Source: Ruegeria lacuscaerulensis
Lineage (GTDB): Bacteria; Pseudomonadota; Alphaproteobacteria; Rhodobacterales; Rhodobacteraceae
Length of the DNA stretch: 64,000 nucleotides
NCBI RefSeq assembly: GCF_013031245.1
Contig: NZ_WPZL01000005.1
Coordinates: forward strand, 1 to 64,000
Direction: 5' to 3'
Part shown: piece after piece, positions 10,654 through 38,412 of the stretch
Layout: each line of letters opens with the position of its first letter
Numbering within the stretch: the first letter of the stretch is position 1
Translations under genes and position numbers: made by a program
The notes under the pieces: model-generated
The model's input: only the letters and a program-made list of their open reading frames with translations
Told to the model about the DNA's origin: nothing
Database searches by the model: none

Positions 10654-11130
10654 TCAGGCCCTGTAGAACAAATACCGGTCGGGCGCGATCGTATCCGGGC
10701 CTCTGACCTGTTCAAATCCCACCAGAGGCTGGCCCGAGATCAGCAACCCTCCGGGCAGCATAACCCGAGCAATCAAAGGGCTGAGCCGCGCCGCCTCGGC
10801 CACGTCCTCATCCTTGATGCCGCGCCCGAAATCATAATGCGCCATTGCGATCCTTGGGCCGCCGGTCGCCAGCTTTTCAAGCATGGGTTCGGCCTCTCCC
10901 TGCAAAAAGTCCTCGGTAGGGGGGGTGCTGGACGGGTGGCATTGCAGCACCCGGTCCATCACCCAGATTCGCCGGTCGGGCAGAATTTCCCGCAAGTGGT
11001 CGTAAGTGCGGCCGTTGCCAAGGCCCATATCCAGAATGTCACCGGTCAGATTCGAAATCTGAGCCACCGCCCAGTTCAACCCGTCGCGTTGGGCCGTCAG
11101 GCGGCGCAGCATGGAATCCAGTCGACTCAT
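10654..11130 (-). CDS. Small class I SAM-methyltransferase-like protein (last gene of glycan operon)
   Basis: This 158-aa protein has a glycine-rich SAM-binding loop DMGLGNGRTYDHL (about 34-46) and a Rossmann-like pattern, but it is shorter than most methyltransferases. A clear paralogue is at 27459-27956: both share SRLD, QR..L.., GLGNGRTY.H and HP.STPP. The function is unknown. The ATG overlaps the stop of the deacetylase-like gene upstream, so it is translationally coupled to the glycosyltransferase operon. It converges on phnM with no spacer. Confidence 0.8.
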   Translation of the reverse strand: MSRLDSMLRRLTAQRDGLNWAVAQISNLTGDILDMGLGNGRTYDHLREILPDRRIWVMDRVLQCHPSSTPPTEDFLQGEAEPMLEKLATGGPRIAMAHYDFGRGIKDEDVAEAARLSPLIARVMLPGGLLISGQPLVGFEQVRGPDTIAPDRYLFYRA

Positions 11131-11900
11131 TCGGGTCTCCCGCTTGGTTCAATATTCGTCGCTGCCCAGGCAAAACCGGGCCCGTCCAGAAGTCTGCGCA
11201 GCAGGTCGTCAGTAAAGGCCCAGATGTCTTGATCATGGACGAGGTGGTGGGTCAATACGCCAAACGGTTCAGTGTTGTCGGTGCTCCCCTCACGCCGGTC
11301 GCGCAGCAGGTTCACCGTCTTGGTGATAAGAGCGTTCGGGGCGGCCAATCCGCGCGTCCCACGCCAATCGATCGGGTCCAGATGGGTGTTTACCTGTTCC
11401 AGCCCGGCTACGGGATATTGCGTTTTTCGGGGGGTCGCGGTCGAGATGAAGTGATAACCGACCCCGGGTAACTCCTGAACCACGTCGGATGCAATGCGGT
11501 TCCAGGGAGGAACAAACATCGGGCAAAGCCTGCCACCAAACAGCTTATGCAATCGCGCCAAACCAGATCGCGCGTCGGTAAGGATTGCATCCATCGGCCT
11601 GTGGAGCCGAAATTCGGATTTTTTTTCATCAAAGGGTGCGTGGTTCAGGTGCGCCCAGCCATGAACCACGGGGATCAGGTTCGTGTGGATTTCGACGTAG
11701 TCCGCCAATACATCCTCGCTATCTCGGGGAATGATCGCAAGATGAACGGGCAGCGCCAGCGTTTCTGACAGCCTGGCCAAAGTTTCTAGCTGAGGAGTTT
11801 TCGTAGCTGCATCGTCGTCGCGCCACCACACTGGCAATTGCAGCCCCTTCGCTTGCCAGATCTCAAGCTCAGTTTCCAAAGGGCGCCAGTCTGCAATCAT
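11127..11900 (-). CDS. Polysaccharide-deacetylase-like (NodB-type) protein
   Basis: This 257-aa protein resembles NodB-fold deacetylases: an acidic WWRDDDA (about 25-31) stands where the family has its metal-binding Asp pair, followed by VHGWAHLNH (about 79-87) with the His ligands, and FVPPWNRIA (about 129-137). It probably removes acetyl groups from a glycan made by the neighbouring glycosyltransferases. No signal peptide is seen, so it would act in the cytoplasm, unlike secreted family members. It overlaps both neighbours by 4 bases. Confidence 0.8.
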   Translation of the reverse strand: MIADWRPLETELEIWQAKGLQLPVWWRDDDAATKTPQLETLARLSETLALPVHLAIIPRDSEDVLADYVEIHTNLIPVVHGWAHLNHAPFDEKKSEFRLHRPMDAILTDARSGLARLHKLFGGRLCPMFVPPWNRIASDVVQELPGVGYHFISTATPRKTQYPVAGLEQVNTHLDPIDWRGTRGLAAPNALITKTVNLLRDRREGSTDNTEPFGVLTHHLVHDQDIWAFTDDLLRRLLDGPGFAWAATNIEPSGRPE

Positions 11901-13036
11901 GTGCGCTCTACCAGGCTTTTTGCAATTTCAACCGACTTTACAGCCCCATCAAAGCCATGGTCTGACACGCTGCGAGGACCAGCCGAAACGACTTTCGCGA
12001 CGGCGCGCGCCAATGCGTTACCGTCAAGGTCCTTGCTGGGCAGTACTTCAATAGCGGGCATTTCCGACAGGCTCTTGCCACGCAGGCTCTGCTCGACTTC
12101 CTTGCCATCGTCAAAAGGGATGAAAACGGCCGGAGTGCCGGATTGCAGAATGTCCAGGGCAGTATTGTAGCCACACATGCTGACCGAGGCCGCGGCAAGG
12201 GGAAGCATCTGGCGGAAATCCGGGCGCACCGGCTCCAGTGTTACCGGGGCATCGCCAATGAATTGCGACAGATGGGTGATGCGCTCCTGTGCGTCCTGTC
12301 CGCCCACCAACAGGCGCCAGCGCCTGTTGGGCATCTTTCGGGCGGCCTTGATGGCCGCCTGAAAGATCGGTTGGCCCACCGATCCTCCGCCCGCGCTGAC
12401 CAACACTTCGCCTTTTCCCACCTCATTGGGGTGCGGAGCAGGAGCCTTAGGGGCAACAAACCCGGTATAATACAGGCGTTGGTTCAAACGATCAGAAACC
12501 GGCCAACTGACATCCAGCGGTACAACGTCTGGGTCGGAATGGACGAGGATACCATCATAGAACTGACACACGATCTCTTCAGCGCGTTCCGCCTTCGACG
12601 GTTTCGATGGCGGTGCCAGAATGTCCCTGATTGAACCCAGAATGACAGGTCGGCGTGGCAGGTTTTGGGCTGCCTTCAGCGCGGCGTTGAACTCGGCAGC
12701 AAGAGATCGGCGGCCAAAAGGAAACAGCTCCGTAATCAGAACATCCGGGCTAAAGCTCCGAATGGCCTCGACCAACGCAGTCTCGCGTGCTTTCAGATAG
12801 GGGGCGTCTGCAACTTCTCCCGTTTGGGTTAAAAGCCGGGTGAAATCGGTTCCGTCTGACCGCAGCGGGGGTAATCCCAGCAGTGTCATCCCTGCACTGT
12901 CCAGCTGCGACGCGGGCATCCCGCCGGAGATGACAAAGGTGTCGTGACCATCCTGCACAAAGGCCCGGCCCAGCGTCAGGGCGCGGCTCAGATGTCCGGT
13001 GCCAAGCAGATGCGTGACGACGATCATCACCTTCAT
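11897..13036 (-). CDS. GT-B glycosyltransferase (MurG/GT28-like)
   Basis: This 379-aa GT-B protein opens with a nucleotide-sugar-transferase N-lobe (MKVMIVVTHLLGTGHLSRALTLG) and has the C-lobe sequence VSAGGGSVGQ, then SMCGYNTALDIL with conserved G and E/D positions where MurG-like enzymes bind the donor. It resembles the larger enzyme at 15934-17148, so the operon carries two of this kind. Donor and acceptor are unknown. It overlaps its neighbours by ATGA. Confidence 0.8.
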   Translation of the reverse strand: MKVMIVVTHLLGTGHLSRALTLGRAFVQDGHDTFVISGGMPASQLDSAGMTLLGLPPLRSDGTDFTRLLTQTGEVADAPYLKARETALVEAIRSFSPDVLITELFPFGRRSLAAEFNAALKAAQNLPRRPVILGSIRDILAPPSKPSKAERAEEIVCQFYDGILVHSDPDVVPLDVSWPVSDRLNQRLYYTGFVAPKAPAPHPNEVGKGEVLVSAGGGSVGQPIFQAAIKAARKMPNRRWRLLVGGQDAQERITHLSQFIGDAPVTLEPVRPDFRQMLPLAAASVSMCGYNTALDILQSGTPAVFIPFDDGKEVEQSLRGKSLSEMPAIEVLPSKDLDGNALARAVAKVVSAGPRSVSDHGFDGAVKSVEIAKSLVERT

Positions 13037-13617
13037 TCGGGTTTCTCCGATCTCAGCAGGCGAACAGGGTCTGGCAGGACCCTCAGGGGCGGCAAATCAA
13101 CGATATAGAGGCGGTTGCGTTTGATTTTGAAGGGTGCAGGCCCATTGAAATCCCATCCCCAGGCGCGGGCCAGAATGACCCGCATGATGCCGATGTGGCA
13201 TACGGCTACTGTGTCACTTTTCAGCCCCGAGAGCCACGGTTGAAGGCGGGTCCAGACTTCTGCCGGGCTTTCGCCGTTCGGAGGCCGGAAATCCCAGCTC
13301 CACTCTTCGATATGACGATATCCGCTATCCGGGTCTGTTATCAGATCGGCGCCACGCAGACCTTCCCACTCTCCCCAGTTCATTTCCGTCAATGCGTCCG
13401 AAACCAACGGATCGCGGCCGGCGACAAGCCGCGCTGTCTCGCTGGCCCGTTGAAGAGGGCTGGACCAGAGAGTTGCAGTCTCCCATGGCGAGGGCAGAAA
13501 AGTTCCCGACAGTTCGGCACGGGCATCGTCGTCCAGAGGAATATCGCTGCGTCCCTGAATGCGACCCGCGCGGTTCCAATGCGTGTGACCATGGCGAAGC
13601 AGGGCAAGTTGGCTCAT
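13033..13617 (-). CDS. Histidine phosphatase (phosphoglycerate-mutase-like)
   Basis: This 194-aa protein has the catalytic RHG signature LLRHGHTHWN (about 6-15) with GRIQGRSDIPLD following, the central SSPLQRASETA, the general acid region ALTEMNWGEWEGL, and the second catalytic His in VAVCHIGIMR. The family dephosphorylates small molecules, including sugar phosphates. Placement inside the glycosyltransferase operon, overlapping on both sides, suggests a sugar-phosphate substrate of that pathway (inference). Confidence 0.88.
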   Translation of the reverse strand: MSQLALLRHGHTHWNRAGRIQGRSDIPLDDDARAELSGTFLPSPWETATLWSSPLQRASETARLVAGRDPLVSDALTEMNWGEWEGLRGADLITDPDSGYRHIEEWSWDFRPPNGESPAEVWTRLQPWLSGLKSDTVAVCHIGIMRVILARAWGWDFNGPAPFKIKRNRLYIVDLPPLRVLPDPVRLLRSEKPE

Positions 13618-14690
13618 GGCAGGGGCTCCATCAGTGGTCGGGCCGCCTGCCAGAACCGGTCGGTTGCCGCAGGCATCAGGTGACGCTTTGACACGTGTGC
13701 ACGTGCATCTCTGCCCCGCGACAGACGTAGGGGCAGGTCATCCAGTAAGGTGCGCATCCTGGCCGCCAAACCCTCGGGACCAGTGTCAACGGATGGATAA
13801 TCAGACAGTGTCAGAACATCCCTTACGCCCGGCCTGTCCTGTGCAACAACCGGCAGGCCGTGGGCCTGCGCTTCCAGATAGATCATGCCATAGGCCTCAT
13901 TGACGCCGGGCCAGACCAGAAGTGAAGATTCTCGGTACACTGCCTGCAAAGCGTCGCGGTCGAGTTGCCCCAGAAACCGGATTTTTGAGCCGAATGGCGC
14001 CATCAGGGCTTCGACCTCGGACCGGGCAGGGCCATCGCCGACGATGTTCAGGGCCCACTCGCCAGTCAGATGTCGCAATGCCTGCGCAAGGATATCGTAG
14101 GATGCCAGCTTGTCGCCGTGCCGCATCATGCCGACACTCAGCATGGGACCATCGCAGGATGATGCTGGCGGCAATTCGGAAACAGGCAAAAACGGAGGCA
14201 GTTCCACAAGGCGTTGACCCCCGAACTTCTCGCGCTCCAGTGTGATCAGGTCATTGGCGGTGTGGTAGAAAATCAGTTGCGCCGCGTCGCAGGCGTCATG
14301 CGCTGATTTGGCAAACCCGGCCCAGGGACCGTTCAGACGGCTGGTTGCTCGGGTGCTTTCCAGTTGGACATAGGGAATTTTGCAGGCTGCGCTTACACGC
14401 GGCCCCAGCAAATCTGGCGCCTTGTAATAGTTGTGGTAGGTCACCCAAAGCGCCGTGTCGGAAGACAATTCGGCGATCAGGCGTTGCGCCTCTGCGTCCG
14501 CCTCGGTGCGCAAAGCGTCTTGTACCTGTGGATCGCCATGCTTGTCGTAAACACGCAGGCGGGACACAAGCTCGACCTTATCTCCTTGCGCTCCGATCGC
14601 CTGCATCAGGTTGCGCGCCATTTCGCGATCCCCCGACGGCACCGGGCTGTCCGGCGATTTCATCGGAGTGTAAAACGCGATACGAGCCAT
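13614..14690 (-). CDS. Family 4 glycosyltransferase
   Basis: This 358-aa GT-B enzyme has an N-lobe beginning MARIAFYTPMKSPD and a GT4 C-lobe with LLVWPGVNEAYGMIYLEAQAHGLPVV (the E-x7-E region) and VVAQDRPGVRDVL. It probably transfers a hexose from a nucleotide donor to a lipid or growing glycan. It follows the second GT4 gene by overlap (stop/start at 14690) and precedes the histidine phosphatase by ATGA overlap. Confidence 0.88.
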   Translation of the reverse strand: MARIAFYTPMKSPDSPVPSGDREMARNLMQAIGAQGDKVELVSRLRVYDKHGDPQVQDALRTEADAEAQRLIAELSSDTALWVTYHNYYKAPDLLGPRVSAACKIPYVQLESTRATSRLNGPWAGFAKSAHDACDAAQLIFYHTANDLITLEREKFGGQRLVELPPFLPVSELPPASSCDGPMLSVGMMRHGDKLASYDILAQALRHLTGEWALNIVGDGPARSEVEALMAPFGSKIRFLGQLDRDALQAVYRESSLLVWPGVNEAYGMIYLEAQAHGLPVVAQDRPGVRDVLTLSDYPSVDTGPEGLAARMRTLLDDLPLRLSRGRDARAHVSKRHLMPAATDRFWQAARPLMEPLP

Positions 14691-15937
14691 TAGTCTATTT
14701 CCGCGCCCAGGGCGCTCAACCGTTTGGACAGACGCGCGATACCCGGGTCCATGCGAAAGTCCGAGATCAGGCGGTCATAGGCTGCAGCAGCCATCGTCGC
14801 CGTTTTGTCGGGGTCCGCGGCCAAACGGGAGATTGCAGCAGCCAGCGATGCAGGATCGTCGTCGGACAGCACCCCATGCTTTTCGGTTTCAATGAACTCC
14901 GGAATGGCGGACACGGGCGTCGACAGGATCGGCAGGAACTGCGAGGCAGCCTCCATCAACACATTGGGCAACCCGTCGCGGTCTCCGTCCGCCGCGACCC
15001 GGCTGGGCAGCACAAACAGGTCAGCCACACGCATTGCCGCGATGACTTCGGGCTGGTCACAAGCCCCTCTCCAAGTGATCCGGTGCGAAATCCCTGCTGC
15101 TTCGGCCCGGTCGCGCAGAACGTCGCCGAGCGTTCCTCCTCCGATATGCGTCCAGTGCCAGTCGAGTGCATCCGGCAACATGGCAAAGGCGCCGATCAAA
15201 CGGTCGAACCCCTTTTTCTCGACCAGACGGCCAACGGACAGCATGTGGAAAGGCCCGTCCGGCGCACGCGCTGCGCGCTCGGGCGGGGCGGGAAAGCGGT
15301 CCAGGTCAAGCCCATGATAGATCAACTCGATCCGCGCGGGGTCGTCGGCCAGGCTGCGCAGGTGATCGGCACCGATAGCGGTGCAGGTTGCCCCAAAGGC
15401 CGCGCCGTGGGTGTTCGCCTGCAGCTTTTCAGTCTTTTCCCATTCCGGAGAGGTCCAGATGTCCTTGGCGTGGGCTGAAAAGCTCCATGGCAGGCCGCGC
15501 ATGATCGCAGCGTAACGCGCGACTGAGGACGGCGTATGCATGAAATGTGCGTACATCGCCCGTGTGACTTCGGGCAATTCTGCGGCCAGCGCACAGGCTT
15601 GACCGAAACGGCGTATCCGGTTGCGGGTCGGATCGCGGCGCAAATCGGCGCGCCAGACCTTATAGGCTTCGGCATAGCCGGGCAGGCTCTGTGCAACCCG
15701 TCGCGCGGCCCAGACGCGCTGCGGCTCCTGGTACAGATATTCGGGCAGGTAATGCACCTGCCCCTCGAACCGGTCGTGCAGCGGGTGGCGTTTGACGTCC
15801 GTCGGGTGGCGCAGGGACCAGATGTCAAAGCTGTGGCCCGCCTCCTGCAAGGCGACCAGTTCCTGAGCAATGAACGTCTCGGACAGGCGCGGCCAACCTT
15901 TGACCAGCACCGCCAGTTTCGGCTGGTTTGGAGTCAT
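14690..15937 (-). CDS. Family 4 glycosyltransferase
   Basis: This 415-aa GT4 enzyme has an N-terminal KGWPRLSETFIAQE, the donor-lobe start LSVGRLVEKKGFDRL (about 241-255) and the E-x7-E-type region RDGLPNVLMEAASQFLPIL. The YAHFMHTPSSVARY segment is typical of colanic-acid-type GT4 enzymes. It probably adds one sugar in the same glycan pathway as its neighbours. It overlaps the first operon gene by ATGA. Confidence 0.9.
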   Translation of the reverse strand: MTPNQPKLAVLVKGWPRLSETFIAQELVALQEAGHSFDIWSLRHPTDVKRHPLHDRFEGQVHYLPEYLYQEPQRVWAARRVAQSLPGYAEAYKVWRADLRRDPTRNRIRRFGQACALAAELPEVTRAMYAHFMHTPSSVARYAAIMRGLPWSFSAHAKDIWTSPEWEKTEKLQANTHGAAFGATCTAIGADHLRSLADDPARIELIYHGLDLDRFPAPPERAARAPDGPFHMLSVGRLVEKKGFDRLIGAFAMLPDALDWHWTHIGGGTLGDVLRDRAEAAGISHRITWRGACDQPEVIAAMRVADLFVLPSRVAADGDRDGLPNVLMEAASQFLPILSTPVSAIPEFIETEKHGVLSDDDPASLAAAISRLAADPDKTATMAAAAYDRLISDFRMDPGIARLSKRLSALGAEID

Positions 15938-17148
15938 CCGGTGGCCCGTTCCTGTTCCGGGCTCAACAGGGCGTCAATGCGATCGGTCACGTAATCCAGC
16001 CCGTCAAGCAACCCGTCGCGCATTGTCTGAGACGGCAGAGGCTGGCGTGGAAGGTCGCGGATGGCCTGGATCATCGCATCTGTCGTCAACCCGTCGCGGT
16101 ATTCGTCGAGCATTTGAACGAGCCCCAGACCTTCGGCGCGCGACGCCCGTATCCATTGTTCCAGCCGCGGCGTAGTGCGCGGAACGATGACAGCGCGTTT
16201 GTCAAAGGACAGAACTTCGCAGAACGTGTTGTAGCCGCCCATACAGACCACTCCGGCCGCGCCCGCAAACAACGTTTCGATCTGGGATTCGAAGCCGACT
16301 GCCGTCACCCGGCCGTTCAGTGCCGCGACACGGGTCTCGAATTCCTCGCGCAATTCGCCAGATAGGAAAGGACCGTAAACCAACACCGCGCGCGGCGACA
16401 GGTTGGGGTCTTTTTCATAGGCGGTCAGGACAAGGTTCACCATCGCCTTGCCGTCGCCTCCGCCGCCCGGCGTAATCAGGATATAAGGTTGCTCGGGCGG
16501 TTCCCCTATCGGCCCCAGATCGCGGCGCAGGTAGCCGGTCCAGTGGATGCGCGCCTGTGCAGCAGGGCTGAGCGGCAGCCCCTTGGTCGGGTCGTAGATT
16601 GAGCGCAATCCATAAACCCAAATCTCGTCATAGAATCTCTCGGTAGCGGCGACGGCTTCTTTCCGCTCCCACTCGGCGGCAAGGACCTCGGGTTCGTCCA
16701 AGACGTCGCGCAGGCCCAAAACAAGCTTGGTGCGTTGCGACCGCAGCAGGCTTTCCAATGTGGGCAGCAATTCGCCGCGAAAGCCGGTAGGTTCCTTGTC
16801 CACGATCAGCAAATCCGGCTCAAATTGCTGGACCGCAGTCTGAATGAGCCCGGAGCGCAGCTCGGTCACCTCTTCGATTCCCATGCCGATCGTCCGTGCC
16901 GCATACGAGCCGTCGGCACGTTTTGTCACGCCTGGAAGGCGCACATGGTCAACCCTGCGCGGAAATGTAAAACGACCAGCTACAGGCGATCCGGTCAGGA
17001 TCAGTGCCGAAGCCTGCGGGTTCGCCTGCGTAATTGCGCCTGCCAAAGCACGTGACCTGCGCAAATGACCCAACCCGAACGTATCGTGACTGTAGAACAA
17101 AATGCGCGGCGCCCGGCCGGTTGTCTCGTTATGTAATCCTAGGCTCAT
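15934..17148 (-). CDS. GT-B glycosyltransferase (MurG/GT28-like), first gene of glycan operon
   Basis: This 404-aa protein begins with RILFYSHDTFGLGHLRRSRALAG and has a C-lobe containing ILITPGGGGDGKAMV and VVCMGGYNTFCEVLSF, the MurG-like donor site. It resembles the product of 11897-13036 in fold and motifs. No membrane helices are evident; such enzymes act at the cytoplasmic face. It is the first gene of a seven-gene operon (through 10654) in which every junction overlaps or abuts. Its promoter must lie in 17149-17521. Confidence 0.82.
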   Translation of the reverse strand: MSLGLHNETTGRAPRILFYSHDTFGLGHLRRSRALAGAITQANPQASALILTGSPVAGRFTFPRRVDHVRLPGVTKRADGSYAARTIGMGIEEVTELRSGLIQTAVQQFEPDLLIVDKEPTGFRGELLPTLESLLRSQRTKLVLGLRDVLDEPEVLAAEWERKEAVAATERFYDEIWVYGLRSIYDPTKGLPLSPAAQARIHWTGYLRRDLGPIGEPPEQPYILITPGGGGDGKAMVNLVLTAYEKDPNLSPRAVLVYGPFLSGELREEFETRVAALNGRVTAVGFESQIETLFAGAAGVVCMGGYNTFCEVLSFDKRAVIVPRTTPRLEQWIRASRAEGLGLVQMLDEYRDGLTTDAMIQAIRDLPRQPLPSQTMRDGLLDGLDYVTDRIDALLSPEQERATG

Positions 17149-20004: not shown

Positions 20005-21360
20005 TCAGGTCGGTAGCGATGGCCAGGTCGGTTGGGCAGTTCCAAGTTTAGATGCGGGCATGGACCAGGCCATCTGCGCTGTTCCTACGACCAGCGCGGG
20101 CTTAAGGCGGTGGCCCGGACCCCAGTCGGAAGATTCGAGGCCCTGAGCATAATCTTTCGGAGTGGGTTCCGTGATGTCTGCGCCAGTTTCTGATTTTCCC
20201 AATGCCGCCAGCAACTCGGCGGTGCGGGCCAGTGACAGTTGAGCGTGCATGATCGAGTTTCCAGATGCAGCTTCGGCCATGGCCGACAGCACCGCAGCCG
20301 CCATGAGATACCCCGTCGCATGATCCAGTGCCTGGACCGGCAGTGGCGTTGGTTTTTCGGCCTTGGCCCATGCACGTCCAGCGTCGGCGATCCCGGCGCT
20401 CATTTGAACGAGGCTGTCAAAGCCGCGCCGGGTAGACCAGGGCCCTTGCCAACCATAGGCGTTCAGGGCGACCTCAACCCTGTTGGGGGCAAGCTCATCC
20501 CGTTTGACCTTGTTCAGACCAAGAGCATCCAATGCGCCGGGCCGGTATCCGTGGACAAAGACATCTGCCTGAGACAACAGACCGTGCAGCTTTTCCATCC
20601 CGGCGGGTGACTTCAGGTCGAGGTAAGCGCAGTGCTTACCTAGGGAAATGTCCGGGATGACGCCGGGTTCGTCCCAGCCGGGCGGGTCAATGCGCAGGAC
20701 TTCGGCTCCGAACCCAGCCAGGGTCCGGGTCGAGACCGGCCCGGCCAGCACGCGGGTTAGGTCGAGGACGCGCAGGCCTGCCAGTGGACGATTGGCCGTT
20801 GCTTCGGGGCGTTCTCTCAGGGTGATTTTCCTGGGGCTGTGCCAGCCGATCAACGGATCGCGGGATACTGCCCGGCCCTGAGGGTGATCCAGCCAGTCCG
20901 CCCGACTGCGCATTGCAGCGGCAACGCCGCCTTTGGCGACGATTGCCGCTTCCAGATCCGCGATGGCCCATTCCTTCACAGCCTGGGAAACGGCTTCCTT
21001 GTCGTCTTTTGCACCCAGAACTTTCAGGGCTGCGGCCCGATGATGCGGCAGGTTGGTGTGCAGTCTGATCCATCCATCTGACGCTTGATAATCCCCGGCC
21101 ACGGCGTCCCAAAGGCTCGGCATGTCCCATCCATCCGGTTTGAACGAAAACCCGAACCAAAGTGAAGCCAGCCTGTGATCGACTGAAACGTCTGGTGCGC
21201 TGGGTGCCAGATTCAGCGCGGTGATAAGGCGCGCCAGTTCCATACCAACGGCGGCGAAACCGGCCGTTGCCAGTTCGGACACTGCGAATGCGCTGGGCCG
21301 CGTACCGGTCCCCGATGTCTTGTAGCTGTCTGAGGCTGGGAGTGCGGAAAGCAGGCTCAT
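20005..21360 (-). CDS. CaiB/BaiF family CoA-transferase with apparently permuted domains
   Basis: This 451-aa protein has the family III core starting near residue 190 (LAGLRVLDLTRVLAGP, then AEVLRIDPP, SLGKHCAYLDLKSPAG, ADVFVHGYRPGALDALGL and RRGFDSLVQMSAGI). The preceding region (about 85-185: DGWIRLHTNLPHHRAAAL, KEWAIADLEAAIVAKGGV, DWLDHPQGRAV) looks like the segment that normally follows the core. The order therefore appears circularly permuted. Substrate is unknown. It is the last gene of the oligopeptide-transporter operon, overlapping the permease by ATGA, which suggests the imported compound is metabolised as a CoA ester (inference). Confidence 0.85.
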   Translation of the reverse strand: MSLLSALPASDSYKTSGTGTRPSAFAVSELATAGFAAVGMELARLITALNLAPSAPDVSVDHRLASLWFGFSFKPDGWDMPSLWDAVAGDYQASDGWIRLHTNLPHHRAAALKVLGAKDDKEAVSQAVKEWAIADLEAAIVAKGGVAAAMRSRADWLDHPQGRAVSRDPLIGWHSPRKITLRERPEATANRPLAGLRVLDLTRVLAGPVSTRTLAGFGAEVLRIDPPGWDEPGVIPDISLGKHCAYLDLKSPAGMEKLHGLLSQADVFVHGYRPGALDALGLNKVKRDELAPNRVEVALNAYGWQGPWSTRRGFDSLVQMSAGIADAGRAWAKAEKPTPLPVQALDHATGYLMAAAVLSAMAEAASGNSIMHAQLSLARTAELLAALGKSETGADITEPTPKDYAQGLESSDWGPGHRLKPALVVGTAQMAWSMPASKLGTAQPTWPSLPT

Positions 21361-34811: not shown

Positions 34812-35201
34812 TCAGTTAGCGAACTTTACCCAGGCCCAGACCATGGCGATATATGTCAGGTTGTGCATGCACTGATCCAAACCAGCTGCACGCCAAAAAG
34901 CGGCCTGGCTTGGTATCAGCTGTTTCTTGTCAGAATAGCTGGCTTTGGCAAAGTCGATATTGAAATGGACGATCCATTCCAGCGCAGCAATGATCAGAAT
35001 AAAGGACCAAGGCGCGCCAAAGATCAGAAATACAATCACTGACCCGACGACATGCACGCCCGCGTGCTGCGCGCGGCCCCAGTGAAAGTACTCACCGCGA
35101 CCGGACAGCATTTTAGGCGTCTGGAGGTAATAGTCCGCAAACATATGTTTGATCTGCAATAAGCAGAGCATCAAAAACACTGCGCCAAAAGTGGCAGTCA
35201 A
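34812..35201 (-). CDS. DUF3307 family membrane protein
   Basis: This 129-aa protein has an N-terminal helix (FGAVFLMLCLLQIKHMFADY) containing the H-x3-D-Y element, a HxGVH segment (RAQHAGVHVVGSVIVFL), a third hydrophobic stretch (SFILIIAALEWIVHFNIDFAK) and a final one (LTYIAMVWAWVKF). This matches the DUF3307 family of small inner-membrane proteins with His/Asp-rich helices, of unknown function. It is divergent from the pseudo-ABC gene across 253 bases. Confidence 0.8.
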   Translation of the reverse strand: MTATFGAVFLMLCLLQIKHMFADYYLQTPKMLSGRGEYFHWGRAQHAGVHVVGSVIVFLIFGAPWSFILIIAALEWIVHFNIDFAKASYSDKKQLIPSQAAFWRAAGLDQCMHNLTYIAMVWAWVKFAN

Positions 35202-35454
35202 ATTTTTCCTCCCGATATCGTCCTGTTGCGAACTTTAGGGGCTAAACCGGGATGGCGCAAATGAACTTGTTCACACGTGGCGATAATCTGAGCAATTTGG
35301 AAACTATTTGCGTCTTCGGCCGTGATTGCGGTAACTTCGGGCAGTTGGATTTGCGACACTTTCGTCAAGATCGGATCGGTGATCCATAGCAGGGGCAGGT
35401 TCCATAGAACGCACGATTTTCCGATTTATTTGGAAGTTTTCAAAACGCGAGCAG

Positions 35455-38412
35455 TTGATCCTGCTGGCCGTGACGTCCACGTTGTTTCCTCTGCTTTACC
35501 TGACCTTGGAATTACCCAAACGCATCATCAACGACGCGATTGGTGCAGCCAGCCCCGTGGTCGATGTGTTAGGCTATAGCCTGCCGCAGACCACATTCCT
35601 GATCATCTTGTGTCTCGCTTTTCTGTTGGCCGTGCTTGCGCATGGGCTGATGAAAATGCGCATCAACACCATGAAAGGTGTGCTGAGCGAACGGATGCTG
35701 CGCCGGTTCCGGTATCAGTTGATCAGCCGCGCCCTGCGCTTTCCTCAGCCCTATTTCGAACGTGTCAGTCAGGGCGAGATGGTGTCGATGATCACCGCCG
35801 AAAGCGAACCGATGGGCGGGCTGATGGGAGATGCGATCAGCCAGCCGGTTCTGCAAGCGGGGCAGATGATCACAATCCTGTCGTTTCTGTTTCTGCAGAG
35901 TGTCTGGTTCGGTCTCGCGGCCGTTGCGCTGATCCCGTTACAAGCCTGGTTGATCCCGAAGTTGCAGCGCCAGATCAACCTGCTGAACAAAAAGCGTATT
36001 CAGGAAGTGCGGATACTGGCTGCGCAGATCGGTGAGAACGCAGCCGGAGCCTCGACGCTGCGTGCGAACGGCGGGTGGCGCTATCGCCGGGCTATGATCT
36101 CGGAACAACTGGGGCGGCTGTTTGGTATCCGGTTCGAGATTTACCAGAAAAAGTTCTTTATGAAGTTCATCAACAACTTCATTTCGCAACTGACGCCCTT
36201 CATGTTTTATCTGGTTGGCGGCCTTCTGGTGCTGCAGGGGTCGGTATCGCTTGGTGCGCTGGTTGCGGCGTTGGCGGCCTACAAAGACCTGAGCTCGCCC
36301 TGGAAGGAACTGCTGACCTATTACAACCAGACACAGGACATGTCGCTGCGGTGGGACGTTGTAATCGAGCGTTTCGCCCCACCCGGTATGTTGGATGAAA
36401 AGCTGTTCGAAGGCGAACCCGACACGCGGCCACATTTGAATGGCGACATTGTTCTGGATCGGGTCTCGGTTCGGGACATGGACGGAAATCATGTTCTGGA
36501 CGATCTTGACCTTACTTTTCCGGGTGGGAAAAACATTGGTATCGCCGCCCCCAGCGAAGAGGACAGGCGCGCCGTTGCAGAGTTGTTGACACGGGAAATT
36601 CTGCCGAGCTCGGGCAAGGTCGGGATTGGCGGCGAAAGCCTGTCCGGCCTGCACCAGAGCGTCGTGGCTGCGCGCATCGGCTACGCATCTTCGCGTCCTG
36701 TCATGTTCAAGGGCACGCTGGGCGACAACGTCATGATGCCAATGCGGTTCAAGCCATTGTCGGCCCCTGCAGATGACCCCGATTTTGCCGAGACACAGCG
36801 GGCGGGAAACAGTGCCGATCCCTTCAATGTGAACTGGCTTGATCCATCTCTGGCCGGTCTGAACAGCCCGGCTGCATTGCGGGACTGGTGGCTTAATCTG
36901 ATCGACGGTATGGGATCGGGGGCCGCCCTTTTCCAGCGTGGGGCTGAACAGGCCTTCGACGCCAAAGAACACTCCGAACTTGCGGATAAGCTGGTTGAGT
37001 TGCGCCCTTTGGTTCAACAGGCGGTGCAAAAGGCCGGGTTGGAACAGCAGGCGCTGGTCTTTGACCGCGGTTCATACAACCCGGCATTGCCGGTTGCAGA
37101 AAACCTGCTGTTCGCCACCCCTCGCGTGCCAGTCACGCAAGAGCTTCTGGCGCGCCAGACCGTCTTTTTGGGTCAGCTTCGCGAATTGGGGCTGGATGAA
37201 ACTCTGGTCAGCCTGACCCGGGATGTGATCGAAATGCTGCGCCAGATATTTGGCCTTGATGGCACGGACCATCCCCTGTTCCGCAAACTGGGGCTCGAAG
37301 CGCAGACTTACGAAGCTGCGATGGAACTGGTCGAGCGGACCCGGAACGAGGGCGTGGCCGGGTTGAACGATGACCAACTGGCCAGCCTGCTGGCCGTTCC
37401 GTTTGTGATCTCGGCCGAACAGATCGGACCTGCGTTCACGGACGAACTCAAGAATCGCATACTTGAACTGCGTCACAGCCATTCCGAAAAGCTGCTTGAT
37501 CGCCTGCACGGTGTCTTTGTGCCTTTGACAAAAGACGAATTCGCGCCCGGGCTGACCGTTATGGAAAACGCATTGTTCGGTAAGGTCAGCCAGATCGGCG
37601 GCGCACGATCTGACGAAGTGCGCAAACTGATTGTCGATGTACTTGACGGGAACGGAGCGCGCCCGCTGGTCGTTGAGCTGATCTATGACGTTCCCGTGGC
37701 TCTTGGTGGTCAGAATTTGCCTGCGGTGTTTGCAGAACCTCTGGCCTTTACCCGCGCGACAATCAAAAAACCGGACATTCTTATCCTGGAAGACGCGCTG
37801 GCCAGCTACGACATGGCAACCAAGGTCGCAGTTTACAAAAACCTCCGTTCGCTGCTGCCGGATACCACGGTGATCTACCTGAACGATCAGTTTGAAAACC
37901 CGGACGTATTCGACATGTATGTCGAAATCCGGCAAGGTCGGGTGGTCTCGGACGAAGGACCTGCTGAAGTGGAAGAAGACAGTGCAGCCTCAGCCGATCT
38001 GGCGCGTAAACTGCGTGCGCTGGAACAGACGCCGCTGTTTTCCGGTCTTGACCGCAGACAGCTGCGCCTGCTGGCCTTTGGTGCGCGCTGGTTCGATGCG
38101 AAGCCCGGCGAGATCGTCTTTTTGAAAGACGACCAACCGACCGATGGCGCCTATGTCGTGCTTGAGGGAGAAGCCGGGCTGTATCTGCCTCAGATGGAAG
38201 GACCGGATCAATTGATCACCAAGGTCGGGCCGGGTGCCCTGGTGGGTGAGCTGGGGCTGATCCGCAAAGAGCCGCGCGCACTCAGCATGATTGCGGAAAC
38301 TGAACTGTCCTGTCTGCGGATCGGCGAGGAAGAATTTCTGGCCGTCGTCGAAAACGATGCCGCGACCGCGTTCAAGCTGTTGCAGGTGATTGCAGGCTAT
38401 GTCTCCAACTAA
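35455..38412 (+). CDS. ABC exporter-like protein with degenerate, expanded nucleotide-binding domain fused to a cNMP-binding domain
   Basis: This 985-aa protein has an ABC exporter membrane domain (about 1-300), an unusual nucleotide-binding region (about 330-835) and a C-terminal cyclic-nucleotide domain (about 855-982; GELGLIRKEPRALS). Walker A is lost (GIAAPSEEDRR around 362, no Lys). The signature reads ALGGQ (749-753). Walker B reads ILILEDALASYD, with the Asp and Glu order swapped, and the H-loop has Asn810 for His. An extra 270 residues contain two further Q-loop-like pieces (533-554, 685-710) besides the normal one (408-429). TTG at 35455 is the only standard start, but family-like residues (ERTIFRFIWKFSKREQ) continue upstream to an ATA at 35404. 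Probably a regulator or ATP-independent relative; function unknown. Confidence 0.85.
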   Translation: MILLAVTSTLFPLLYLTLELPKRIINDAIGAASPVVDVLGYSLPQTTFLIILCLAFLLAVLAHGLMKMRINTMKGVLSERMLRRFRYQLISRALRFPQPYFERVSQGEMVSMITAESEPMGGLMGDAISQPVLQAGQMITILSFLFLQSVWFGLAAVALIPLQAWLIPKLQRQINLLNKKRIQEVRILAAQIGENAAGASTLRANGGWRYRRAMISEQLGRLFGIRFEIYQKKFFMKFINNFISQLTPFMFYLVGGLLVLQGSVSLGALVAALAAYKDLSSPWKELLTYYNQTQDMSLRWDVVIERFAPPGMLDEKLFEGEPDTRPHLNGDIVLDRVSVRDMDGNHVLDDLDLTFPGGKNIGIAAPSEEDRRAVAELLTREILPSSGKVGIGGESLSGLHQSVVAARIGYASSRPVMFKGTLGDNVMMPMRFKPLSAPADDPDFAETQRAGNSADPFNVNWLDPSLAGLNSPAALRDWWLNLIDGMGSGAALFQRGAEQAFDAKEHSELADKLVELRPLVQQAVQKAGLEQQALVFDRGSYNPALPVAENLLFATPRVPVTQELLARQTVFLGQLRELGLDETLVSLTRDVIEMLRQIFGLDGTDHPLFRKLGLEAQTYEAAMELVERTRNEGVAGLNDDQLASLLAVPFVISAEQIGPAFTDELKNRILELRHSHSEKLLDRLHGVFVPLTKDEFAPGLTVMENALFGKVSQIGGARSDEVRKLIVDVLDGNGARPLVVELIYDVPVALGGQNLPAVFAEPLAFTRATIKKPDILILEDALASYDMATKVAVYKNLRSLLPDTTVIYLNDQFENPDVFDMYVEIRQGRVVSDEGPAEVEEDSAASADLARKLRALEQTPLFSGLDRRQLRLLAFGARWFDAKPGEIVFLKDDQPTDGAYVVLEGEAGLYLPQMEGPDQLITKVGPGALVGELGLIRKEPRALSMIAETELSCLRIGEEEFLAVVENDAATAFKLLQVIAGYVSN

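Follow-up and report, generated by a model that had tools for sequence, protein, structure and literature searches.

Can a protein with the fold of an ATP-binding cassette (ABC) exporter still act when the residues for normal ATP hydrolysis are gone, and what might set its state instead? This question is raised by a gene in a 64,000-nucleotide stretch of Ruegeria lacuscaerulensis DNA (assembly GCF_013031245.1, contig NZ_WPZL01000005.1; hereafter the window). The gene, designated copy A, encodes an exporter-type transmembrane domain (TMD), one nucleotide-binding domain (NBD) split by an insert of ~300 residues, and a cyclic nucleoside monophosphate (cNMP)-binding domain, an architecture that can be read directly from the sequence. 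The protein belongs to a family of ABC-exporter-like half-transporters in alphaproteobacteria and is the form in which roseobacters have the cNMP domain fused. Its favored role, to which a probability of roughly 0.4 is assigned, is that of a cyclic-nucleotide-controlled, non-canonical ABC translocator of a surface glycan, heterodimeric in roseobacters and kept scarce through its start codon.

One nucleotide-binding domain split by a repeat-containing insert

The open reading frame was confirmed at 35455–38412, and the frame stays open further 5' of the TTG at 35455. Pfam identified both the exporter membrane domain and the appended cNMP domain named in the original prediction for this gene (Table 1), and the AlphaFold2 model (mean predicted local distance difference test [pLDDT] 80, predicted template modelling score 0.66) matched the exporter PCAT1 in Foldseek (E 2.3e-12). 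Other Foldseek matches included TmrAB, TM287/288, and TAP, at E-values of about 1e-12 to 1e-11; the template modelling (TM) scores, at most 0.34 by query and 0.57 by target, were low and the overall superposition is therefore poor. With ComA, these ABC1-type (type IV) exporters are the best sequence and fold matches and, like the window protein, are half-transporters composed of a TMD and a C-terminal NBD. Unlike them, the family has no Walker A Lys-Ser/Thr in its aligned rows and possesses the insert and a cNMP domain; TmrAB and TM287/288 are heterodimers with one working site.

The original prediction described an ATPase that had been partly duplicated. An internal partial duplication does exist, but a second ATPase was ruled out. 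The Pfam ABC_tran model gave no match in the window protein. In PDB sequence searches, residues ~51–429 and, weakly, ~744–835 (numbered from the TTG) aligned on one ABC exporter chain, with ~285 extra residues separating the two pieces of a single NBD; the second piece alone scored poorly (independent E-values of 0.61 and 5.8). The NCBIfam CydD match was best at residues 757–850, and the Foldseek matches were mostly single-NBD exporter chains of about 550–600 residues that aligned over about 800–910 columns. One NBD with an unrelated insertion had been envisaged as the other outcome; the single NBD is real, whereas the insertion is not unrelated, its repeats resembling the Q-loop segment.

The insert lies between the Q-loop and the signature of the NBD. 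Modelled alone, it is chiefly helical with short strands; no PDB fold matched this model below E 0.99, its sequence had no PDB match up to E 10, and the stretch 36676–37683 alone had no Pfam match. The three Q-loop-like segments of the original prediction, each followed by a DN or EN motif, were confirmed, and profile comparison placed the repeat above chance. Segments 2 and 3 aligned over 58 columns (score 80.8, 98.7%), and segment 1 aligned with segment 2 (23 columns, score 29.1, 84.8%) and segment 3 (23 columns, score 27.0, 76.5%), against a maximum score of 19.6 for 103 random pairs of 85-residue stretches taken from the same alignment. In the AlphaFold2 model, segments 2 and 3 have in common a helix–strand–loop–(E/D)N helix unit, and they constitute a tandem repeat. 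Because the repeat scores exceed the null, the Q-loop-like element was probably reused within the insert; segment 1 resembles the other two over a short stretch and more weakly. With the insert and the NBD parts beside it as a profile, relatives turned up in 98 of the 289 genomes sampled from the class (73 of 224 genera) and in 25 of 299 genomes of the phylum, all 25 from the same class. The insert is a family trait, found in alphaproteobacteria.

The Walker A lysine is absent, as originally predicted: the GxxGxGK(S/T) position reads IAAPSEEDRRA. The LSGGQ signature, the Walker B Asp-Glu pair, and the H-loop His are also missing, the window protein having LPAVF, LED, and Asp/Asn at these places. 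Family alignment and orthologue residues altered the remaining motif assignments. ALGGQ had been proposed as a weak signature and was dropped, as LPAVF occupies the LSGGQ column in the family alignment. The reversed Asp/Glu Walker B is present as LED but is not a conserved feature, with orthologues reading LEN, LES, or LDS, and was likewise discarded as meaningful. The Asn reported in the H-loop correctly signaled loss of the canonical His, but the column itself is Asp, or Asn one column off, and is unconserved. Non-canonical ATPase sites are shared by the relatives in the alignment, in support of the original prediction. Walker A Lys followed by Ser/Thr occurred in none of 123 aligned family rows, the majority from Ruegeria and near kin, so no homologue with an intact Walker A motif was found among them.

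Motifs were counted in representatives sharing less than 75% identity, 50 in all, of which 32 are the most divergent from the window protein and 18 come from roseobacters (copies A and B, the latter a paralogue described below). The divergent members mostly have GxGK(D/E) at Walker A. Among the 32, the Walker A Lys is kept in 21, with Asp/Glu after that position in 29; the Q-loop Gln is kept in 9, the catalytic Glu in 17, the H-loop His in 12, and the signature Gln in 30. None of the 18 roseobacter representatives retains the Lys, the catalytic Glu, or the H-loop His, although low similarity makes the placement of these columns less secure in both copies. With Lys-Ser/Thr missing from all 123 rows, the entire family is non-canonical, and with none of the three residues in copies A and B, the window type ranks with its most altered members. 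These counts bear on a rival reading in which ATP still drives a slowly hydrolysing exporter with substituted catalytic residues and the cNMP domain adds regulation only. The retained exporter fold and the residues kept by divergent members speak for it, but the missing Lys-Ser/Thr and the three residues lost from the roseobacter representatives make it doubtful.

The gene is present in all 25 sampled genus genomes (its own and 24 others, with orthologues at 82–93% identity), as is the full-length paralogue, copy B (51–53% identity to the window protein). The ratio of nonsynonymous to synonymous substitution rates (dN/dS) against the window was 0.033–0.071 in all domains, including the degenerate NBD and the insert, in a sample of 42 loci (L145 and L146 excluded, saturated pairs skipped, 30–41 pairs per domain). 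Given this universal presence and purifying selection, the gene is not a decayed copy. A locally decayed, functionless transporter gene might be suspected from the strong motif loss, and one genome of the genus (G020) has a third copy, L048:5867–7770, that is indeed split into separate open frames, but decay of copy A is contradicted by its conservation, together with the spread of insert relatives across the class, and is extremely improbable.

Table 1. Features of copy A and of the glycan gene cluster in the window
Feature	Position	Strand	Basis
In-frame TGA 5' of ATA; no ATG/GTG/TTG between	35380..35382	+	sequence
Shine-Dalgarno-like AGGGGCAGG	35391..35399	+	GGG at codon -4 in 49/50 copy-A rows, nearly all Ruegeria
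Putative AUA start codon	35404..35406	+	ATA/ATC in 50/50 copy-A rows, conservation boundary
Coding sequence, copy A ABC-like/cNMP protein, 1002 aa, stop TAA included	35404..38412	+	open frame, conservation boundary
ABC exporter TMD, PF00664 match	35557..36273	+	Pfam E 3.3e-17
N-terminal half of single NBD, approximate limits	36391..36738	+	sequence matches and model
Walker A equivalent IAAPSEEDRRA, without lysine	36541..36573	+	family alignment
Segment 1, true Q-loop position, IGYASSRPVMFKGTLGDN, no Gln	36676..36729	+	alignment, profile comparison
Inserted, mostly helical domain (modelled stretch)	36727..37635	+	AlphaFold2 pLDDT 83.7
Repeat segment 2, helix, strand, ...YNPALPVAENLLF	36955..37122	+	profile comparison, model
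Repeat segment 3, helix, strand, ...FAPGLTVMENALFG	37432..37587	+	profile comparison, model
Signature equivalent LPAVFAEPLAFTRA	37717..37758	+	family alignment
Walker B equivalent ILILEDALASYD	37777..37812	+	family alignment
H-loop region TVIYLNDQFEN, without His	37867..37899	+	family alignment
cNMP_binding domain, PF00027	38101..38358	+	Pfam, 63.2 bits vs cut-off 27.5
Phosphate-binding cassette VGELGLIRKEPRALSMIAE; Gly, Glu, Arg kept	38242..38298	+	51/51 copy-A rows
Glycan gene cluster, homologous to cluster near unfused family members	10657..17148	-	Pfam

Linkage to cyclic-nucleotide-binding domains and glycan genes

A cNMP domain is linked to the family gene in 57 of 58 loci, fused in 19 and encoded by a separate downstream gene in 38, most within 200 bases (about 620 in L052). 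Neighbourhoods were taken for 59 loci, from which L230, an NBD-less protein on a copper plasmid, was left out of the count; the cNMP search covered six frames for 48 of the 59, and the other 11 comprised two fused, seven separate, one with none, and L230. The Gly, Glu, and Arg of the phosphate-binding cassette are intact in every copy-A row, whereas the Glu is replaced by Asp in 36 of 37 copy-B rows, and a canonical cassette (GEIAILCDVPRTA[ST] and similar) was found in 25 separate cNMP genes (pattern shown for 25 of 31). The domain and its cassette (GELGLIRKEPRALS) are shared with known cNMP-binding domains; PDB matches included the regulatory subunit of PKA and a small cNMP protein of bacterial origin, and CRP is another protein with such a domain. 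These known proteins have DNA-binding or kinase partners, whereas in this family the domain accompanies an ABC-like membrane protein, either in the same chain or encoded close by. Fused members also exist outside roseobacters (L218, L224, and Azospirillum L229:10001–13144), so the fusion may have arisen more than once. With linkage this consistent, it is plausible that the state of the protein is set by a cyclic nucleotide.

The host genome has 38 class III cyclase matches. Two rhizobial records contain an annotated cyclase gene 10–13 kb upstream of the family gene, and the one from R. leguminosarum matches PF00211. A cyclase suspected from length and position in an importer operon of the window (20008–21360) was rejected, as Pfam assigned it to CoA-transferase III. 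The window encodes a second cyclic-nucleotide protein (668–1330, +), a short membrane protein whose N-terminus is Popeye-like (POPDC1-3) and which also has a cNMP-binding domain.

Within the flanking sequence fetched, 37 of the 58 loci have genes similar to glycosyltransferases of the GT4 or GT28 families. Such genes were seen at 34 of 38 unfused and 3 of 19 fused loci, and not in L223. The three fused loci are the window, a Sulfitobacter plasmid (L231), and Azospirillum L229. The cluster in the window comprises a Methyltransf_17 gene, a gene without a Pfam match, a GT28-like gene, a His phosphatase, two GT4-like genes, and a final GT28-like gene that scores below Pfam's cut-off. The counterpart of the unmatched gene, at the same place in the Sulfitobacter plasmid, is annotated as a polysaccharide deacetylase. 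Directly beside copy A lies a divergent DUF3307 gene (34812–35201, -), an arrangement also seen in Ruegeria sp. TM1040.

A connection to a known surface polysaccharide may be drawn through Sinorhizobium meliloti. In strain R14, for which the gene table is incomplete, the family gene is followed by a cNMP gene, an FkbM methyltransferase, and a LacI regulator. In the available text of PMC11387232, SM_b21272 is listed as LacI, and counting back along this gene order, the family gene would be about smb21269, within smb21252–smb21271. By synteny, the Sinorhizobium member is thus inferred to fall in a surface-polysaccharide locus. According to the available text of PMC10128002, nine genes in smb21252–smb21271 are necessary for an uncharacterised surface polysaccharide, phazolicin-protecting polysaccharide (PPP), insertions in the locus strongly lower fitness with phazolicin, and cAMP is reported to regulate genes potentially involved in PPP. 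The homologous gene and its cNMP neighbour would lie inside this locus; in roseobacters, by contrast, the gene is duplicated, has the cNMP domain fused, and mostly sits away from the glycan cluster.

The degenerate NBD, the near-constant cNMP linkage, and the glycosyltransferase neighbourhood would also suit a protein that transports nothing, acting instead in the membrane as a sensor or scaffold through which cyclic-nucleotide state reaches the glycosyltransferase machinery. The TMD is the most constrained part of the protein (dN/dS 0.033), as expected if a translocation path matters; a sensor could match this value too, and we consider the sensor or scaffold role unlikely.

The start codon of copy A and its pairing with copy B

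The original prediction placed the start at the TTG. That reading frame stands, but translation most likely begins at the ATA upstream, giving 1002 residues rather than 985. Where copy B has its ATG (in 31 of 31 rows), the 50 copy-A rows (49 orthologues and the window) have ATA in 44 and ATC in 6. Base entropy by codon position is flat over the 20 codons upstream (1.35, 1.28, and 1.33 bits) and coding-like over codons 1–17 after the ATA (0.21, 0.13, and 0.96 bits), and dN/dS is 0.053 for codons 2–19. The protein start is placed at the ATA because coding conservation begins exactly there. ATT never occurs at this position, while nearby Ile codons are ATC or ATT, so ordinary isoleucine usage does not explain the codon. 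An upstream open reading frame for translational coupling at the ATA was judged unlikely by eye from the sequence.

A start at a canonical codon elsewhere is conceivable for the 12 of 50 copy-A rows with ATG, GTG, or TTG between the upstream stop and the ATA (in two, an ATG two codons before), and the public annotation of the TM1040 orthologue begins downstream, 17 codons after the ATA/ATC position. The other 38 rows have no such codon between the nearest in-frame stop and the ATA/ATC, and this absence, the missing ATT, and the agreement of codon-position conservation with the aligned copy-B ATG in beginning at the ATA render a canonical start very unlikely.

The same codons were found more widely. 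In further roseobacter genomes, 24 of 26 copies fetched as A were readable (L264 and L282 were not), with 15 ATA and 9 ATC; of 14 fetched as B, 12 had ATG and two had ATA/ATC and were reassigned to A. In a tree built from 159 N-terminal parts, one split of 76 rows (support 0.863) took in every one of the 39 with an ATA/ATC label. The starts of the other 37 rows had been truncated by the ORF caller and read ATA/ATC in the sequence (for L033, through L147, which is the same contig judging by its length); outside the split were 76 ATG, 3 TTG, 2 GTG, 1 CTG, and 1 CTC.

E. coli infC starts at AUU. In the host genome, infC (L297, on another contig) reads ATA, as do all 17 readable loci of 28 infC loci from the same bacterial family, host included (11 were unreadable). 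Copy A resembles infC in that a conserved non-AUG codon marks its coding boundary and comes with a Shine-Dalgarno (SD)-like sequence, the motif being conserved in the Ruegeria-dominated set and, by eye, more variable in other genera. The predicted anti-SD duplex of the window leader is -9.1 kcal/mol, and the SD of copy A is marginally stronger than that of copy B (-8.04 vs -7.39 kcal/mol, p 0.048). In the available text of PMC13009471, S. aureus infC (AUA), ccpN (AUA), and cvfC1 (AUU) have extended SD motifs and low initiation modulated by initiation factor 3 (IF3), and its reference list includes a title on an AUU start of E. coli pcnB. Copy A shares with S. aureus infC and ccpN an AUA-type start and an SD-like sequence; unlike infC-type genes, it encodes a membrane protein of a glycan-linked family common to many roseobacter genera. 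With initiation most likely at AUA/AUC, synthesis of copy A is predicted to be slow and sensitive to IF3.

Among 198 genomes of the bacterial family, 24 have copy A and a B-like copy, 5 have A only, 5 have a B-like copy only, and 164 have neither, a co-occurrence significant by Fisher's test (p 2.5e-21, uncorrected for phylogeny). Labels were assigned by identity, with L292 and L293 (labelled B, ATA/ATC start) moved to A. Start codons were checked in 27 of 29 A genomes, several B-like copies at 32–43% identity were unchecked, and two genomes with only a distant member (24–26%) were counted as neither. Three of the five A-only genomes are 78–91% complete. The co-occurrence of copies A and B would fit a heterodimer.

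Other genes were noted in these surveys. Directly downstream of copy B is a CAAX protease-like (Rce1-like) gene (L046:5040–6041), followed by genes that we take to be accD and folC. An ABC exporter membrane domain of ~313 residues without any NBD (L047:5816–6757) has counterparts in all 25 genus genomes, and the gene after it is presumably efp. Further NBD-less ABC membrane domains, ~40% identical to the window TMD, are encoded at L049:6601–7818 and L230:7773–9077; the one in Phaeobacter inhibens sits on a conjugative plasmid amid copper oxidase, copper-binding, and cytochrome genes.

Working model and implications

In the favored reading, a single NBD without normal hydrolysis residues, interrupted by its conserved helical insert, would act with a cNMP-binding domain that is a nearby downstream gene in most loci and part of the same chain in the window protein. 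The complex would most likely move a surface-polysaccharide glycan or glycolipid precursor across the inner membrane, or gate that step, its conformation being set mainly by binding of cAMP or cGMP and not by a normal hydrolysis cycle. In roseobacters, copy A, with its cassette kept, would probably pair with copy B, with its Glu-to-Asp cassette, and the supply of copy A would be held low by its start. A stricter version, in which a cNMP-gated translocator works independently of hydrolysis, the NBD couples sensor to TMD via the duplicated Q-loop elements, and the IF3-sensitive AUA start tunes supply, is improbable.

Several observations weigh against cyclic-nucleotide-controlled glycan translocation. 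Seven of the 32 divergent representatives have the Lys, the catalytic Glu, and the H-loop His, and L082 also has the Walker B Asp; because these residues are near-canonical, some relatives may still hydrolyse ATP, and confidence is held to the level given at the outset partly for this reason. The L223 locus (G307) has an 863-residue open frame and no cNMP domain anywhere in its 16 kb, and no dedicated cyclase was identified despite the class III matches in the host. Only 3 of 19 fused loci have flanking glycosyltransferases, and those in the window lie 18–20 kb away. The S. meliloti gene number comes from synteny, and the effect of a cyaA mutant of that species is described as small in the available text of PMC10128002. 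Finally, some genomes hold A or B-like copies alone.

A search of one open-access collection for an ABC transporter with a cyclic nucleotide-binding domain found no description, and a search of open-access literature for an AUA/ATA start codon in Ruegeria, Roseobacter, or Rhodobacter gave no start-codon report among the matches listed. On the basis of these open-access searches, the family and its start codon are apparently undescribed. ABC exporters are textbook ATP-driven machines and, if the favored reading is true, the family would be a natural test of what the ABC fold can do without hydrolysis, with a repeat-built insert sitting where the NBD couples to the membrane domain. Copy A, with its AUA/AUC start and an AUG-start paralogue as control, would offer a clean natural case for start-codon discrimination outside infC, and the complex would connect second messengers directly to surface polysaccharide.

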